Below are positions 6,166-12,673 of a stretch of DNA of 34,719 nt, piece after piece; within the stretch, counting starts at the first letter, position 1; each line of letters begins with the position of its first letter. The notes under the pieces were generated by a model that did not search any database, had not been told where the DNA came from, and was given only the letters and a program-made list of their open reading frames with translations. The translations under genes and the position numbers were made by a program. The DNA is from an uncultured Bacteroidales bacterium (GTDB lineage: Bacteria > Bacteroidota > Bacteroidia > Bacteroidales > JAFGXI01), in contig CAMZKE010000066.1 of the NCBI GenBank assembly GCA_947311115.1, positions 1 to 34,719 on the forward strand, given 5' to 3'.

Positions 6166-6771
6166 TTATAAATCAGATTTAATTTTATCAATAATGAAGT
6201 TAAAAACTTCGTTGACTGATTCTTCAATTGTTTTATTTTCAGTTTTTATTACTAAGTCTGCATTTTGGGGTGCTTCAAATGGGGCATTAATACCTGTAAA
6301 ATCTTTTATTTCGCCGGCTCTTGCTTTTTTGTATAAACCTTTTACATCGCGTTGTTCGCAAATTTCGAGAGGAGTGTCAATAAAAATTTCTATAAAATTG
6401 TTTTCTCCAATTATATCTTTTGCCTGTTTTCTTATGGCAATAGTAGGGCTTACAAAACTATTTATTGTTATAATACCACAATTTAAAAAAAGTTTTGAGA
6501 CTTCGGCAATTCTACGAATGTTTTCTGTTCTATCTTCTGGCGAAAAACCAAGATTATTATTTATTCCTGTTCTAACATTATCGCCATCTAACACTTGTGT
6601 TAAAAAATCTTTTTTATGAAGTGCTTTTTCTAAACCAAGAGCTATTGTTGATTTGCCTGAGCCGGATAAACCTGTAAACCATAGAACTTTTGCTTTTTGG
6701 TTTAAAAATTGTTCTTTATCCTCCTTTGAAAGCATTCTTTCAAAAATAGGATGTATGTTGTTGTCTGTCAT
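6166..6771 (-). CDS. cysC: Adenylylsulfate (APS) kinase
   Basis: 201 residues, normal CysC length. It phosphorylates APS with ATP to give PAPS, the sulfuryl donor for sulfotransferases and substrate for PAPS reduction. Signatures: P-loop GLSGSGKST (34-42), LDGDNVRTGINNNLGFS (61-77), EDRTENIRRIAEV (79-91), FVSPT (106-110) and the lid motif KGLYKKARAGEIKDFTGI (144-161). No CysD/CysN/sulfate adenylyltransferase gene is in the window, although these usually neighbour cysC in Bacteroidota. Instead it overlaps by one base (TAATG) with the preceding thioredoxin-like gene, implying translational coupling. Functionally it is the obvious PAPS source for the sulfotransferase at 9997-10842. Confidence 0.96.
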   Translation of the reverse strand: MTDNNIHPIFERMLSKEDKEQFLNQKAKVLWFTGLSGSGKSTIALGLEKALHKKDFLTQVLDGDNVRTGINNNLGFSPEDRTENIRRIAEVSKLFLNCGIITINSFVSPTIAIRKQAKDIIGENNFIEIFIDTPLEICEQRDVKGLYKKARAGEIKDFTGINAPFEAPQNADLVIKTENKTIEESVNEVFNFIIDKIKSDL

Positions 6772-7708: not shown

Positions 7709-9139
7709 TTAATTTAGTCCAATAGCATAATACCCTTTAATACCATTAGGGTAAATACCTTCAATTAAAATTCCTCCATTATTAGAATCGTTATCTATAA
7801 TTTTTTTAATATCATCGGCAGTATTAACAATTTTGCGGTTTACTGTAATTATAATAAATCCTGGTTTAACTCCTTCAATACGAAATTTACCTGCATCAAC
7901 AGATTTTACTTTTACACCGTTTGATAAACCAAATTTCTTTTTTTCTATGCTCGATAATTCTTCAAATTTTGCACCTAGTGCATCAATATTAGTTGTCTTA
8001 ATATATGATGTATCTCCATTTTTATTAGTTAATACTAAATCAAAATCTAACTCTTTATTATTTCTAATAACTGTAATTTTAACTTTTTGTCCGGGACGAT
8101 ATGCAATAAATATTTCTTGCATTTCATTTTTGTTTTTTATTGGCTTATCGTTAATCTTAGAAATTACATCGCCTACTTTTATTCCAGCCTTACCTGCGGC
8201 AAAATTTTCGTCAACATAAGCTACCCCAACACCATTATCAGAGTTTATACCAATACTTTTAGCTCTTGGGTCGTTAACGTCAATAGTTGCAATGCCCAGG
8301 TATGCACGTTGTACAGTACCGTATTCCATAAGGTCTTTCACTATTTTATCGACAATATTTATAGGGATAGCGAAAGAATATCCCATATATCCGCCATTTC
8401 TTGAATATATCATAGAGTTTATACCAACAAGTTCGCCTCTAGTGTTAACTAAAGCTCCACCGCTATTACCAGGGTTTACAGCGGCATCGGTTTGTATAAA
8501 CGATTCAACCGAACGGTTGTTCATTCCTAAATTACGGGCTTTTGCACTTACAATTCCGGCAGTAACAGTTGATGTTAAGTTAAATGGGTTTCCAACAGCC
8601 AAAACCCAATCACCAATTTCAAGAAGGTCGGAGTTACCGTATTTTAAAAATGGCAATCCTTTTTCTTCAATTTTAAGTAATGCAATATCTGTTTCTGGAT
8701 CGGTTCCAATTAGTTCAGCTGTGTACGATTTCTCATTATTTAAAACTACTTCAATATGACTGTTATTTTCAATAACATGGTTGTTTGTAACAATATATCC
8801 ATCAGAGCTTATTATTACACCTGAACCAAAGCCATAAATTTGTTCGCCTTGCGGTTGTGGGCTAAAACCAAAAAATAAATCACGGAACGAAGTGTATGAA
8901 TTTTCTTCGTATTTTTTAATGTGTACAACCGCATCAACCGAATTTTTGGCCGCTTGTTTTAAATCTACATCAATTGTTGGTAACGAAACTTTTTGAAAGT
9001 TAATATCGTTTTTAACCTGTGTTTTTTCAACCGGTAATTTTTCTTGTTTTACATCATTATAAAAAAAATGGTTATAAACAATTACTGAAAAAACTGAACT
9101 AACCATACTTATAAGTATTATTCCAAATATTTTTTTCAT
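7709..9139 (-). CDS. HtrA/DegQ-type periplasmic serine protease
   Basis: 476 residues from the preferred start at 9139 (MKKIFGIILI); an in-frame ATG at 9172 would add 11 residues before the signal segment and is unlikely. An N-terminal hydrophobic stretch (4-22) is a signal peptide or anchor. The trypsin-like domain has the complete triad: H121 (VTNNHVIENN), D151 (DPETDIALLKI) and S226 (NPGNSGGALVN). PDZ1 follows at about 285-370 (AYLGIATIDV...GVGVAYV...AGIKVGDVISKINDKPI) and a second, shorter PDZ at about 395-475 (GVKVKSVDAGKF...PGFIIITVNRKIV). This is the standard DegP/DegQ layout for degrading or chaperoning misfolded envelope proteins. It is divergent from dapF, with its own promoter candidate at 9172-9203. 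Confidence 0.96.
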   Translation of the reverse strand: MKKIFGIILISMVSSVFSVIVYNHFFYNDVKQEKLPVEKTQVKNDINFQKVSLPTIDVDLKQAAKNSVDAVVHIKKYEENSYTSFRDLFFGFSPQPQGEQIYGFGSGVIISSDGYIVTNNHVIENNSHIEVVLNNEKSYTAELIGTDPETDIALLKIEEKGLPFLKYGNSDLLEIGDWVLAVGNPFNLTSTVTAGIVSAKARNLGMNNRSVESFIQTDAAVNPGNSGGALVNTRGELVGINSMIYSRNGGYMGYSFAIPINIVDKIVKDLMEYGTVQRAYLGIATIDVNDPRAKSIGINSDNGVGVAYVDENFAAGKAGIKVGDVISKINDKPIKNKNEMQEIFIAYRPGQKVKITVIRNNKELDFDLVLTNKNGDTSYIKTTNIDALGAKFEELSSIEKKKFGLSNGVKVKSVDAGKFRIEGVKPGFIIITVNRKIVNTADDIKKIIDNDSNNGGILIEGIYPNGIKGYYAIGLN

Positions 9140-9222: not shown

Positions 9223-9996
9223 ATGACTATTAATTTTTATAAATATCAAGGTACAGGTAACGATTTTATTATAATTGATAATAGAAATAAAAGCTTTGAA
9301 ATTGATAATAATTTAATAAAAAAAATGTGTGACCGTCGTTTTGGCATTGGTGCTGATGGGTTAATGTTACTTGAAAACCATAATAATACAGATTTTAGAA
9401 TGGTTTATTTTAATTCTGATGGTTATGAAGGAACTATGTGCGGTAATGGCGGACGTTGTATTGTGGCATTTGCAAATAAATTGGGAATTATAAAAAATAA
9501 AACAAAGTTTATTGCTGTTGATGGTGTTCATTATGCCGAAATTAATGATGGTTTAGTTTCGCTTAAAATGCTTGATTTAAAACAAATAGAGAGAATAAAT
9601 GATGATTATTTTTTAAATACCGGTTCGCCTCATTATGTTAAGTTTGTTGATGAGTTTAATAAAATTAATGTTTATAACGAAGGTAAAAGAATTAGAAATA
9701 ACGATACTTTTAAAGCCAAAGGGACGAATGTAAATTTCGCACAATTAACAGGAAATATTATAAAAGTAGGTACATACGAACGTGGAGTAGAGGACGAAAC
9801 TCTGTCTTGTGGTACAGGTGTTACTGCTGTAGCTATTTGTGCATATATAGAATCTGATAAAAAAATAAATAATTTTGATATAGAAACAAAAGGTGGAAAT
9901 TTGAATGTAAGTTTTGATAATAAAAATAATTTATTTGAAAATGTTTGGCTTACCGGGCCGGCTACTTTTGTTTTTAGTGGAGAATATGTAGATTAA
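9223..9996 (+). CDS. dapF: Diaminopimelate epimerase
   Basis: 257 residues, typical DapF length. It converts LL- to meso-diaminopimelate, the step giving the peptidoglycan cross-linking residue and lysine precursor. The two catalytic cysteines lie in their diagnostic contexts: C73 in TMCGNGGRC and C196 in LSCGTGVTAVA. GTGNDFIIID (10-19), RRFGIGADG (38-46) and the NTGSPHYV loop (132-139) are also conserved. It is the first gene of a tight plus-strand run reaching panC: its TAA (9994-9996) is immediately followed by the ATG of the sulfotransferase with no spacer. No clear TTTG/TAnnTTTG promoter was found in the 83 bases shared with htrA. Confidence 0.97.
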   Translation: MTINFYKYQGTGNDFIIIDNRNKSFEIDNNLIKKMCDRRFGIGADGLMLLENHNNTDFRMVYFNSDGYEGTMCGNGGRCIVAFANKLGIIKNKTKFIAVDGVHYAEINDGLVSLKMLDLKQIERINDDYFLNTGSPHYVKFVDEFNKINVYNEGKRIRNNDTFKAKGTNVNFAQLTGNIIKVGTYERGVEDETLSCGTGVTAVAICAYIESDKKINNFDIETKGGNLNVSFDNKNNLFENVWLTGPATFVFSGEYVD

Positions 9997-10842
9997 ATGA
10001 GTAATAATAAAAAAATATATTGGTTGGCGTCTTATCCTAAATCGGGTAATACTTGGTTTCGTGTTTTTTTTGCTAATTATATTAATAATAGCGATATACC
10101 TATATCGATAAACGAAATTTCTACAGGTTCAATTGCAAGTAGCAGAGTGCTTTTCGATAATATTAGTGCTTTAACTGCCACCGATTTAACTCAAGATGAG
10201 GTTGATTTGCTTCGTCCTGATATTTATAGAGAGCTTAATAGTGATATTGATGGATATGCTTATCATAAAGTGCACGATGCTTATACACTAAACACAAATA
10301 ATGAGCCATTATTTCCTTCTGATGTATCGAAAGGAGTTGTGTATTTTATTAGAAATCCGTTTGATGTAGCAATTTCTTATGCAAATCATAGCTCTATAAG
10401 TATAGATAAATCTATTGAGCTTTTAAACAGTAATGAGCATAAATTATCTAAATCGGAAAAAAAGCTATCAAATCAAATACGGCAAAAGCTGTTAACATGG
10501 AGTAATCATGTAAATTCGTGGACAACACAAACCGACATACCTGTTTTAGTTTTGCGATACGAAGATATGCTCGAAAATACTTACGATGTATTTAAGCAAG
10601 CAGTTGAGTTTTTAAATTTAGATTTTGATGAAAATAAATTAAAAAAGGCAATCAAATTTAGTAGTTTTAAAGAACTTAAAAAACAAGAAAAAGAAGCAGG
10701 CTTTAAAGAAAAACCACTTAAAACAAAAAGTTTTTTTAAAACAGGTAAAGCAGGAACATGGAAAACAATTTTAACAAACGAACAAATTGAAAAAATAATA
10801 AATAACAACAAGCTTGTAATGAAAAAATACAATTATTTGTAA
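9997..10842 (+). CDS. PAPS-dependent sulfotransferase
   Basis: 281-residue sulfotransferase-domain protein without signal peptide. The PAPS 5'-phosphosulfate loop is YPKSGNTWFR (13-22), the 3'-phosphate-binding segment is YFIRNPFDVAISYANH (116-131, with R119 and S127), and the C-terminal FFKTGKAGTWKTILT (246-260) corresponds to the RKGxxGDWK region of the family. HKVHD (90-94) occupies the position where a catalytic His is expected. It transfers a sulfuryl group from PAPS to a hydroxyl or amine; the acceptor is not predictable. The start directly abuts the dapF stop, and a PqqD-like gene follows after 26 bases, an association that suggests a peptide or peptide-derived acceptor. PAPS would come from the APS kinase at 6166-6771. 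Confidence 0.92.
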   Translation: MSNNKKIYWLASYPKSGNTWFRVFFANYINNSDIPISINEISTGSIASSRVLFDNISALTATDLTQDEVDLLRPDIYRELNSDIDGYAYHKVHDAYTLNTNNEPLFPSDVSKGVVYFIRNPFDVAISYANHSSISIDKSIELLNSNEHKLSKSEKKLSNQIRQKLLTWSNHVNSWTTQTDIPVLVLRYEDMLENTYDVFKQAVEFLNLDFDENKLKKAIKFSSFKELKKQEKEAGFKEKPLKTKSFFKTGKAGTWKTILTNEQIEKIINNNKLVMKKYNYL

Positions 10843-10868
10843 ATTTGCAGGCACAAAAGTGGTAAAAT

Positions 10869-11150
10869 ATGGATATAAAAGATACTGACATTCTTACACG
10901 AAATATGGAAATTTTATCATCGGATATGGATGGCGAAACTGTTATGATGAGTGTTGAAAATAGTGAGTATTACAGTTTGAGTACTGTAGGTACTAAAATT
11001 TATGATATTCTTTCGAAAGATATGAGTTTTAAGAGTTTAATAGATGTTTTAACCAAAGAATATGATGTTGATAGAGCTGTATGTGAAAAAGATACAAAAG
11101 AGTTTTTAGAAGAATTGCTGAAAAAAAATATTATTAAAATTAAAGGATAA
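10869..11150 (+). CDS. PqqD-like protein (RiPP recognition element fold)
   Basis: 93 residues, the size of stand-alone PqqD-family proteins. The N-terminal part, DGETVMMSVENSEYYSLS (about 18-35), matches the beta-strands that include the characteristic 'xxxxLNxtgxxIw' region (here YSLSTVGTKIYDIL, 32-45), followed by a winged-helix three-helix segment ending FLEELLKKNIIKI. Known family members bind the leader peptide of a ribosomally made, modified peptide and present it to a modifying enzyme. Here the adjacent enzyme is a sulfotransferase; no radical SAM protein, peptidase, transporter or precursor peptide is visible in the flanking gaps (26 and 11 bases). Assignment to the fold is good; the client peptide is unknown. 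Confidence 0.8.
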   Translation: MDIKDTDILTRNMEILSSDMDGETVMMSVENSEYYSLSTVGTKIYDILSKDMSFKSLIDVLTKEYDVDRAVCEKDTKEFLEELLKKNIIKIKG

Positions 11151-11161
11151 TTATTTAGGTA

Positions 11162-12673
11162 ATGAAAATATTTTTATCGGAGCAAGTAAAAGAAGCTGAT
11201 GCTTATACAATTAAACACGAGCCTATTTCATCAATAAACTTAATGGAAAGGGCAGCAACATTATGCTATAATTTTATTAAAGAAAATTATTTTTCAAATT
11301 TATATCATATTTTTGTTGGTCCCGGTAATAATGGTGGCGATGGTTTAGTAATTGCTCGTTTATTAGCCGAAGCAGATAAAAAAGTTAATGTATATATATT
11401 AAAATTTACCGATAATTTTTCATCGGATTTTACCGAAAATCTTAAACGATTAAATTCGCAGAATAAAGCTAGCGTTAGGGAAATAAAAGATTTATACAAG
11501 TTTCCTGAGTTTAATGATGAGGAAATAATTATTGATGCAATATTTGGTTCAGGTTTATCTCGTCCTGTTCAAGGTTTTGTTGCAGAGGTAATAAATAAAA
11601 TAAATGAGGCTAAAAATACAGTAATTGCAATTGATATTCCTTCGGGTTTATTTGGCGAAGATAATGCCGAAAATTTACCTAATAATATAATAAAAGCTGA
11701 TATAACTCTAAGTTTTCAGTTTCCTAAATTATCTTTTTTACTTCCTGATAATCATAAGTATGTTGGGCGTTTTGAGTTGTTTGATATTGGTGTGCATAAA
11801 GATTATATTAGTAAAACACCATCGAAATATTATTTTACCGAACAAGCTGATATAAAAATACAAAAACGTGATAAATTTTCACATAAAGGAACTTTCGGAC
11901 ACGCATTGTTATTTGCAGGAAGTTATGGTAAAACAGGAGCTTTAGTTTTGGCATCAAAATCTTGTTTAAGAACAGGTGTTGGGTTATTAACTTCGTATAT
12001 ACCAAAAACATCATATAATATTTATCAAACATCAGTGCCTGAGGCAATGTGTTATACTTTTAATGATGAAACAGCATCGTTTACTACACCTGATTTATCC
12101 AGTTATTCGGCAATTGGAATAGGTCCGGGTATAGGAAAAGACAGGTTAAGTTTAGCAGTTTTAACCGATATTATTCAAAAAAATAAAGCAAAAGTGCCAA
12201 TGGTTATTGATGCTGATGGCTTAAACCTTTTATCAGAAAATAAATATTTATTAAAAGAATTACCCGAAAATAGTATTTTAACTCCACATCCCGGTGAGTT
12301 TAAACGCTTAGTGAAAAATTACAATAACGATACAGAGAAATTAGAAAAATTAAAAAAAATTGCCCGTAAATATAAGTTGGTAATAGTTTTAAAAGGTGCT
12401 TATACTGTGGTTGCAACGCCTGATGGGCGATTGTATTTTAACACAACAGGAAATCCCGGAATGGCAACTGCAGGTAGTGGCGATGTTTTAACAGGAATAA
12501 TATTATCTTTGCTGGCTCAAAAATATAATCAGCTACAAGCGGCTGTTTTTGGAACTTATATTCATGGTTTAGCAGCTGATTTGGCTGTTAATAATTTAGA
12601 CGAAAATAGCTTAATTGCAACTGATATTATTAATTATTTGCCGAAGGCATTTAAAAAACTAAATCTTAAATAA
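11162..12673 (+). CDS. nnr: Bifunctional NAD(P)H-hydrate epimerase / ADP-dependent NAD(P)H-hydrate dehydratase
   Basis: 503 residues, normal for the fused repair enzyme. Residues 1 to about 215 are the epimerase (YjeF_N): VGPGNNGGDGLVIARLL (52-68), IIDAIFGSGLSRP (122-134, catalytic Asp125) and IDIPSGL (157-163). Residues about 235-500 are the ribokinase-like dehydratase: GSYGKTGALVLA (253-264), GPGIG (321-325), HPGEF (376-380) and NPGMATAGSGDVLTGI (431-446, catalytic Asp441). Together they rescue the damaged hydrates of NADH and NADPH. It begins 11 bases after the PqqD-like stop and its TAA overlaps the next ATG by one base, so it is embedded in the run from dapF to panC. Confidence 0.97.
   Translation: MKIFLSEQVKEADAYTIKHEPISSINLMERAATLCYNFIKENYFSNLYHIFVGPGNNGGDGLVIARLLAEADKKVNVYILKFTDNFSSDFTENLKRLNSQNKASVREIKDLYKFPEFNDEEIIIDAIFGSGLSRPVQGFVAEVINKINEAKNTVIAIDIPSGLFGEDNAENLPNNIIKADITLSFQFPKLSFLLPDNHKYVGRFELFDIGVHKDYISKTPSKYYFTEQADIKIQKRDKFSHKGTFGHALLFAGSYGKTGALVLASKSCLRTGVGLLTSYIPKTSYNIYQTSVPEAMCYTFNDETASFTTPDLSSYSAIGIGPGIGKDRLSLAVLTDIIQKNKAKVPMVIDADGLNLLSENKYLLKELPENSILTPHPGEFKRLVKNYNNDTEKLEKLKKIARKYKLVIVLKGAYTVVATPDGRLYFNTTGNPGMATAGSGDVLTGIILSLLAQKYNQLQAAVFGTYIHGLAADLAVNNLDENSLIATDIINYLPKAFKKLNLK

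Follow-up and report, generated by a model that had tools for sequence, protein, structure and literature searches.

B1 proteins of lasso peptide systems bind the leader and pass the precursor to B2 (PMC8498205; PMC5067487). In the paeninodin group, a homolog of HPr kinase phosphorylates the C-terminal serine, and in the case of pseudomycoidin, a nucleotidyltransferase attaches hexoses to the phosphate (PMC8498205). Sulfotransferase genes have been noted in lasso clusters of Firmicutes (PMC4289311; according to PMC8498205, also by Zhu et al. 2016), with no function assigned there. In the literature searched, where coverage of subscription papers is poor, no paper on a sulfated lasso peptide was found. 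Here we analyze two adjacent genes of a member of Bacteroidota that very probably encode the B1 protein and a tailoring enzyme, a sulfotransferase, of a lasso peptide pathway with dispersed genes.

A sulfotransferase-B1 gene pair in a housekeeping gene run

The analyzed window, 34,719 nucleotides long, corresponds to contig C66; the draft genome it belongs to (G000, 3.53 Mb) is placed in Bacteroidota by its type IX secretion proteins and Bacteroidales relatives. In this window, dapF, the sulfotransferase gene (ST), the gene for a PqqD-like protein, and the NAD(P)HX repair gene are co-directional and separated by gaps of 0, 26 and 11 bases, respectively, the first base of ST directly following the dapF stop (Table 1). 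The sister species G001 has the identical gene order, with 61% identity to the window ST and 59% to the PqqD-like protein; thus, the placement of the pair within a housekeeping run is real and conserved. The original prediction described this layout, with ST abutting dapF and a 93-residue PqqD-like protein between ST and the NAD(P)HX repair gene, and the ORF coordinates agree with it; the housekeeping setting, which it considered odd, recurs in G001, and the pair, whose lack of conservation in relatives would have refuted it, is conserved, as seen both from the gene order in G001 and from linked ST and PqqD-like genes across the order.

Table 1. Genes of the window and lasso peptide genes elsewhere in the same genome, with precursor neighbors in this and related genomes
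Feature	Contig or locus	Coordinates	Strand	Size	Remarks
APS kinase	C66 (window)	6166-6771	-		TIGR00455 248 bits; also near the ST-B1 pair in G001
dapF	C66 (window)	9223-9996	+		TIGR00652 209 bits; same neighbor in G001; flanking housekeeping gene, outside the pathway
PAPS-dependent sulfotransferase, lasso-cluster type (ST)	C66 (window)	9997-10842	+	281 aa	PF00685, E 2.1e-23
Lasso peptide B1 protein (PqqD fold, predicted leader-binding)	C66 (window)	10869-11150	+	93 aa	NF033536 91 bits
Bifunctional NAD(P)HX repair enzyme	C66 (window)	11162-12673	+		PF01256 and PF03853; same neighbor in G001; flanking housekeeping gene, outside the pathway
B2 protease	C6, L076	9528-9959		143 aa	NF033537, above cut-off
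AsnB-like cyclase	C153, L097	7109-8818		569 aa	Best model NF033535
Candidate precursor	C153, L097	8879-9010		43 aa	ATG at 8879, 60 bases past the cyclase stop
Kinase K, HPr-kinase-like	C136, L155	8761-9660
SprB-repeat neighbors of precursors	L097; L136; L137	9023-13525; 9088-14277; 10446-15661			Also L047, L141, L188, L191-L194, L197-L199

ST is assigned to the PAPS-dependent sulfotransferases by its family score (83.5 bits against PF00685, cut-off 22), the PAPS-binding motif and the conserved catalytic residues. The features on which the original prediction relied for this assignment, YPKSGNTW, R119 and S127, are all present; K91, H93, R119 and S127 are invariant among nine homologs, and by analogy with SULT enzymes, H93 would be the catalytic histidine. 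The nearest solved structure by sequence is that of TEG12, a glycopeptide-antibiotic sulfotransferase. The window ST belongs to the same subfamily as the sulfotransferases located inside lasso clusters and, in a tree of 41 such enzymes, pairs with the G001 ST among those of lasso clusters, with the deep branching mostly lacking resolution.

The PqqD-like protein matches PF05402 (E 3.6e-15; 56.5 bits, cut-off 23.4) and passes the NCBI lasso B1 model NF033536, lasso_PqqD_Bac (cut-off 80); its best sequence matches in PDB are 9x90, named lasso peptide biosynthesis PqqD family chaperone, and TbiB1. Identity with the PqqD of PQQ biosynthesis was rejected, given a score of 17.7 bits against TIGR03859 (cut-off 46) and a window without PQQ genes. 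The AlphaFold model, obtained from an alignment of two sequences only, is of moderate quality (mean pLDDT 76, with a weak stretch at residues 27-37). Foldseek with this model ranked TbiB1-leader complexes and PqqD at the top and TfuB1 in ninth place, at weak E-values of 0.1-0.24 and probabilities of 0.94-1.0, supporting the winged-helix fold presumed in the original prediction. On these sequence and fold matches, the protein is a lasso peptide B1 protein, for which leader binding is predicted.

The APS kinase encoded 3.2 kb from the pair could plausibly supply PAPS to ST. We consider this merely plausible because G038, a genome from another family with two ST-B1 pairs, yielded no APS kinase match, and because the co-occurrence of APS kinase and ST over 60 related genomes is not significant (Fisher test, p = 0.09, indicative only given that kinship makes the genomes non-independent). 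Genes for PAPS synthesis, cysD and cysNC, are located inside two ST-bearing lasso clusters of different families (L088:4458-7293; L207:16033-18873).

Lasso peptide genes dispersed over the genome

No precursor-like ORF was detected within the window, as the original prediction had stated for the vicinity of the pair, and a candidate precursor was found on contig C153 of the same genome. Searches by family and by stretches, including a small-ORF scan that was not exhaustive, identified the precursor, B1, B2 and the cyclase on C66, C6 and C153, and an HPr-kinase-like enzyme (K) on C136. Thus, the lasso genes of this genome do not form one cluster, clustering being usual for lasso systems but not required. 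One close family member each was detected for B1, B2, K and the cyclase, and the stretches examined around each of the four loci contain no further lasso gene. The proposal that the pair acts on a peptide encoded elsewhere is therefore supported by the precursor, cyclase, B2 and K on other contigs, with sulfation as the presumed reaction.

The C153 cyclase scores 242 bits against the lasso cyclase model NF033535, far below the strict cut-off of 525, so that its designation rests on the genomic context and on the missing N-terminal glutaminase cysteine (Cys2). The precursor (MDNNKRNIKILKWEKPKIKNLKITKTFGGANATTYESGAVYHS; in part, ...KWEKPKIKNLKITKTF-GGANATTYESGAVYHS) matches none of the curated precursor models, including the paeninodin model NF033524, against which the precursors of relatives score 13.2-21.8 bits (cut-off 27). 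B2 adjoins polysaccharide export genes. K lies 0.8 kb from the contig end, and its separateness accordingly rests in part on G001, where the four matching loci are on four contigs and the B1-ST, A-cyclase and K-NodB loci retain their local neighbors. Dispersal common to both species is not an assembly accident of a single genome. The lasso proteins of the two species are 52-61% identical, with catalytic and binding motifs retained.

A second PqqD-like protein of the genome, on contig C14, was considered as an alternative partner and rejected (30 bits against the B1 profile). The neighbors of this 80-aa protein are an ATP-grasp enzyme and a protein resembling PLP-dependent decarboxylases (L077:7409-10060), in what appears to be a separate, unrelated locus for peptide or amino acid ligation.

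Distribution and organization in related genomes

Among 60 related genomes, B1 and B2 were detected in the same 11, K in nine of these 11, and ST in seven of those nine, that is, ST is nested within K, and K within the coinciding sets of B1 and B2; none of the 49 relatives without B1 and B2 has a close K or ST. A query with a single ST protein recovered three related loci only, and order-wide profile searches were more productive: ST is carried by 36 of the 393 genomes of the order (and, at E 1e-30, by 6 of the 395 genomes sampled from the phylum). Of the 36 stretches around these genes, 31 have K adjacent to ST and 29 contain B1, some of the remaining stretches stopping at a contig end; B2, the cyclase, a nucleotidyltransferase and a precursor are also common. 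Other members of the order carry this ST in compact clusters (K-ST-B1-B2, cyclase, precursor). Genome G005, of the same family as G000, is intermediate, with two loci, B1-B2 and cyclase-precursor-SprB-repeat protein-PorP/SprF-K-start of ST, and in G038, ST-B1 occurs twice, with B2, K and the cyclase separate.

This distribution bears on the possibility that a compact lasso cluster broke up and that ST and B1 persist as a relic with little or no lasso role. Partial loss does occur in the group, G002 (L054:9686-10382) and G011 (L051:9227-9983) retaining B1-B2 pairs only, with neither K nor ST detected. However, all pathway genes are intact in both G000 and G001 despite the divergence of the two species, and decay does not predict A, C, B1, B2, K and ST remaining intact together, which makes a relic improbable compared with a working, dispersed pathway.

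Several relatives show further variations. In family f52, two K genes flank ST (L048:8052-10740; L200:8506-11235). Sneathiella encodes three related sulfotransferases in tandem, beside which no PqqD partner was recognized (L057:7138-9707). Proteins containing phage tail-collar domains are encoded inside the lasso clusters of some relatives (L088:12811-14533, L089:4006-5713, L207:6041-7766 and L205:14914-15462), by three consecutive genes in three of the four loci, and L088 and L089 also contain a formyltransferase-like gene.

Precursors and their genomic neighbors

Unfiltered scans yielded 24 candidate precursors with a common leader pattern, W-x-x-P-x-hydrophobic (a first order-wide scan had demanded Ser, Tyr, Thr or Trp at the end). 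The W and P of the leader are invariant in all 15 aligned precursors. Usually, the candidates have Thr two residues ahead of the core, a start rich in Gly, and an acidic residue (Glu or Asp) around position 7-9; the C-terminal residue is Ser in 20 of the 24 and another residue in four, and Tyr is absent from several cores. A loose precursor pattern matched 17 times in 0.99 Mb, with 15 of the matches adjoining lasso genes. A chance ORF is accordingly an unlikely explanation of the C153 precursor, encoded 60 bases downstream of a cyclase.

Could the pair act on a different, unrecognized ribosomal peptide instead? The C153 precursor is physically far from the pair, the small-ORF scan of G000 covered stretches rather than the whole genome, and in G038, with its two pairs, an unfiltered scan found no precursor beside the cyclase. 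Against this, B1, B2, K and the cyclase are the single close members of their families detected in G000, the second PqqD-like protein being the weakly scoring one of the ATP-grasp locus, and the C153 leader resembles those of clustered ST-B1 systems, with which it shares W-x-x-P-x-[IL]. We regard such a peptide as highly improbable and the C153 precursor as the candidate substrate.

Often, a gene directly after the precursor gene or flanking it encodes a large protein that combines SprB repeats with a type IX sorting domain (CHU_C or Por_Secre_tail), and in three genomes, PorP/SprF is present beside the precursor as well. A functional tie between the lasso peptide and the surface protein is possible, and this recurring type IX-secreted neighbor points to a physiological function to seek.

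Predicted pathway and site of sulfation

The identities of the genes, the location of the precursor next to the cyclase, the dispersal common to the sister species and the co-occurrence with clustered versions elsewhere were computed; from these, we infer how the dispersed parts would act jointly on the C153 precursor, which residues would form the ring, and that, and where, the product would be sulfated. The most likely function of the pair is the handling and sulfation of a lasso peptide produced in trans. The window B1 would bind the K-W-x-x-P-x-I leader of the C153 precursor, B2 would cleave near K-T-F/G-G, and the cyclase would link Gly1 with the Glu of GGANATTYE, closing the ring. K and ST would modify a hydroxyl, most likely that of the C-terminal Ser or of what is built on it.

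That B1 serves the lasso peptide and ST, merely co-transcribed, sulfates another target such as a surface polysaccharide or a small molecule has very little probability in our judgment: enzymes of PF00685 frequently have small-molecule substrates, the solved structure nearest to ST by sequence is that of TEG12, and B2 of G000 has polysaccharide export genes as neighbors, but members of this ST subfamily are linked across the order to K, B1, B2, the cyclase and the precursor and occur in 0 of 49 relatives without B1 and B2.

For sulfation of the lasso peptide, the C-terminal Ser, or a structure built on it, is our tentative choice of site, with somewhat less than an even chance; Ser, Thr or Tyr in the ring or tail is the alternative. 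The C-terminal Ser is the commonest acceptor shared by the precursors, and K adjoins ST in almost all clusters, which suggests that the two enzymes have the same or a nearby site of action and favors this residue. Since several cores lack Tyr, sulfation of Tyr was dropped as the general reaction.

It is conceivable, if rather unlikely, that sulfated and perhaps phosphorylated lasso peptides of these Bacteroidota function permanently at the cell surface, in connection with type IX secretion or SprB-type adhesins, rather than serving as an occasional antibiotic. If true, such a role would explain both the scattering of the genes and their maintenance in the manner of housekeeping genes. Tools seeking adjacent lasso genes would miss a dispersed pathway of this kind. 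With about two dozen candidate precursors, and genomes with and without ST, the unexplained lasso-cluster sulfotransferase becomes directly testable.

Comparison with known systems

In the literature searched, we found no description of the Bacteroidota family with its precursors, of a dispersed pathway kept between species, or of SprB-repeat proteins that are secreted by the type IX system and encoded right behind the precursor; all three are apparently new.

The inferred sulfation of a ribosomally made bacterial peptide is shared with RaxST acting on RaxX, as cited in PMC9484694; going by that description, the latter is Tyr sulfation of a linear peptide, unlike in the present system, where several cores lack Tyr. 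TEG12, Teg14 and cytosolic SULT share PF00685 and the PAPS-binding motif with ST and are its closest solved relatives by sequence, but the similarity is low-level, their substrates are glycopeptides or small molecules, and they have no B1 partner. The PqqD of PQQ biosynthesis (PDB 5sxy, 3g2b) has the same fold and PF05402 domain as the window protein, which in turn falls under the TIGR03859 cut-off and has no PQQ genes around it in the window. The stand-alone lasso B1 proteins TbiB1 and TfuB1 (PDB 5v1u, 5v1v, 6jx3) rank at or near the top among the sequence and fold matches of the window B1, which differs from them in being encoded far from its precursor gene and in having an ST partner, not found described for TbiB1 or TfuB1.

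The closest counterparts are the clusters of the paeninodin/pseudomycoidin group of Firmicutes (PMC8498205; PMC4289311), with split B1 and B2, an AsnB-like cyclase, an HPr-kinase homolog, a sulfotransferase gene, precursors ending in Ser and, as in many of the relatives analyzed here, a nucleotidyltransferase. The present system differs from that group in its Bacteroidota host, the nearly constant location of ST beside K, the dispersal of the genes in G000, precursors that score below the paeninodin model cut-off, and the SprB-repeat, type IX-secreted proteins encoded after the precursor.
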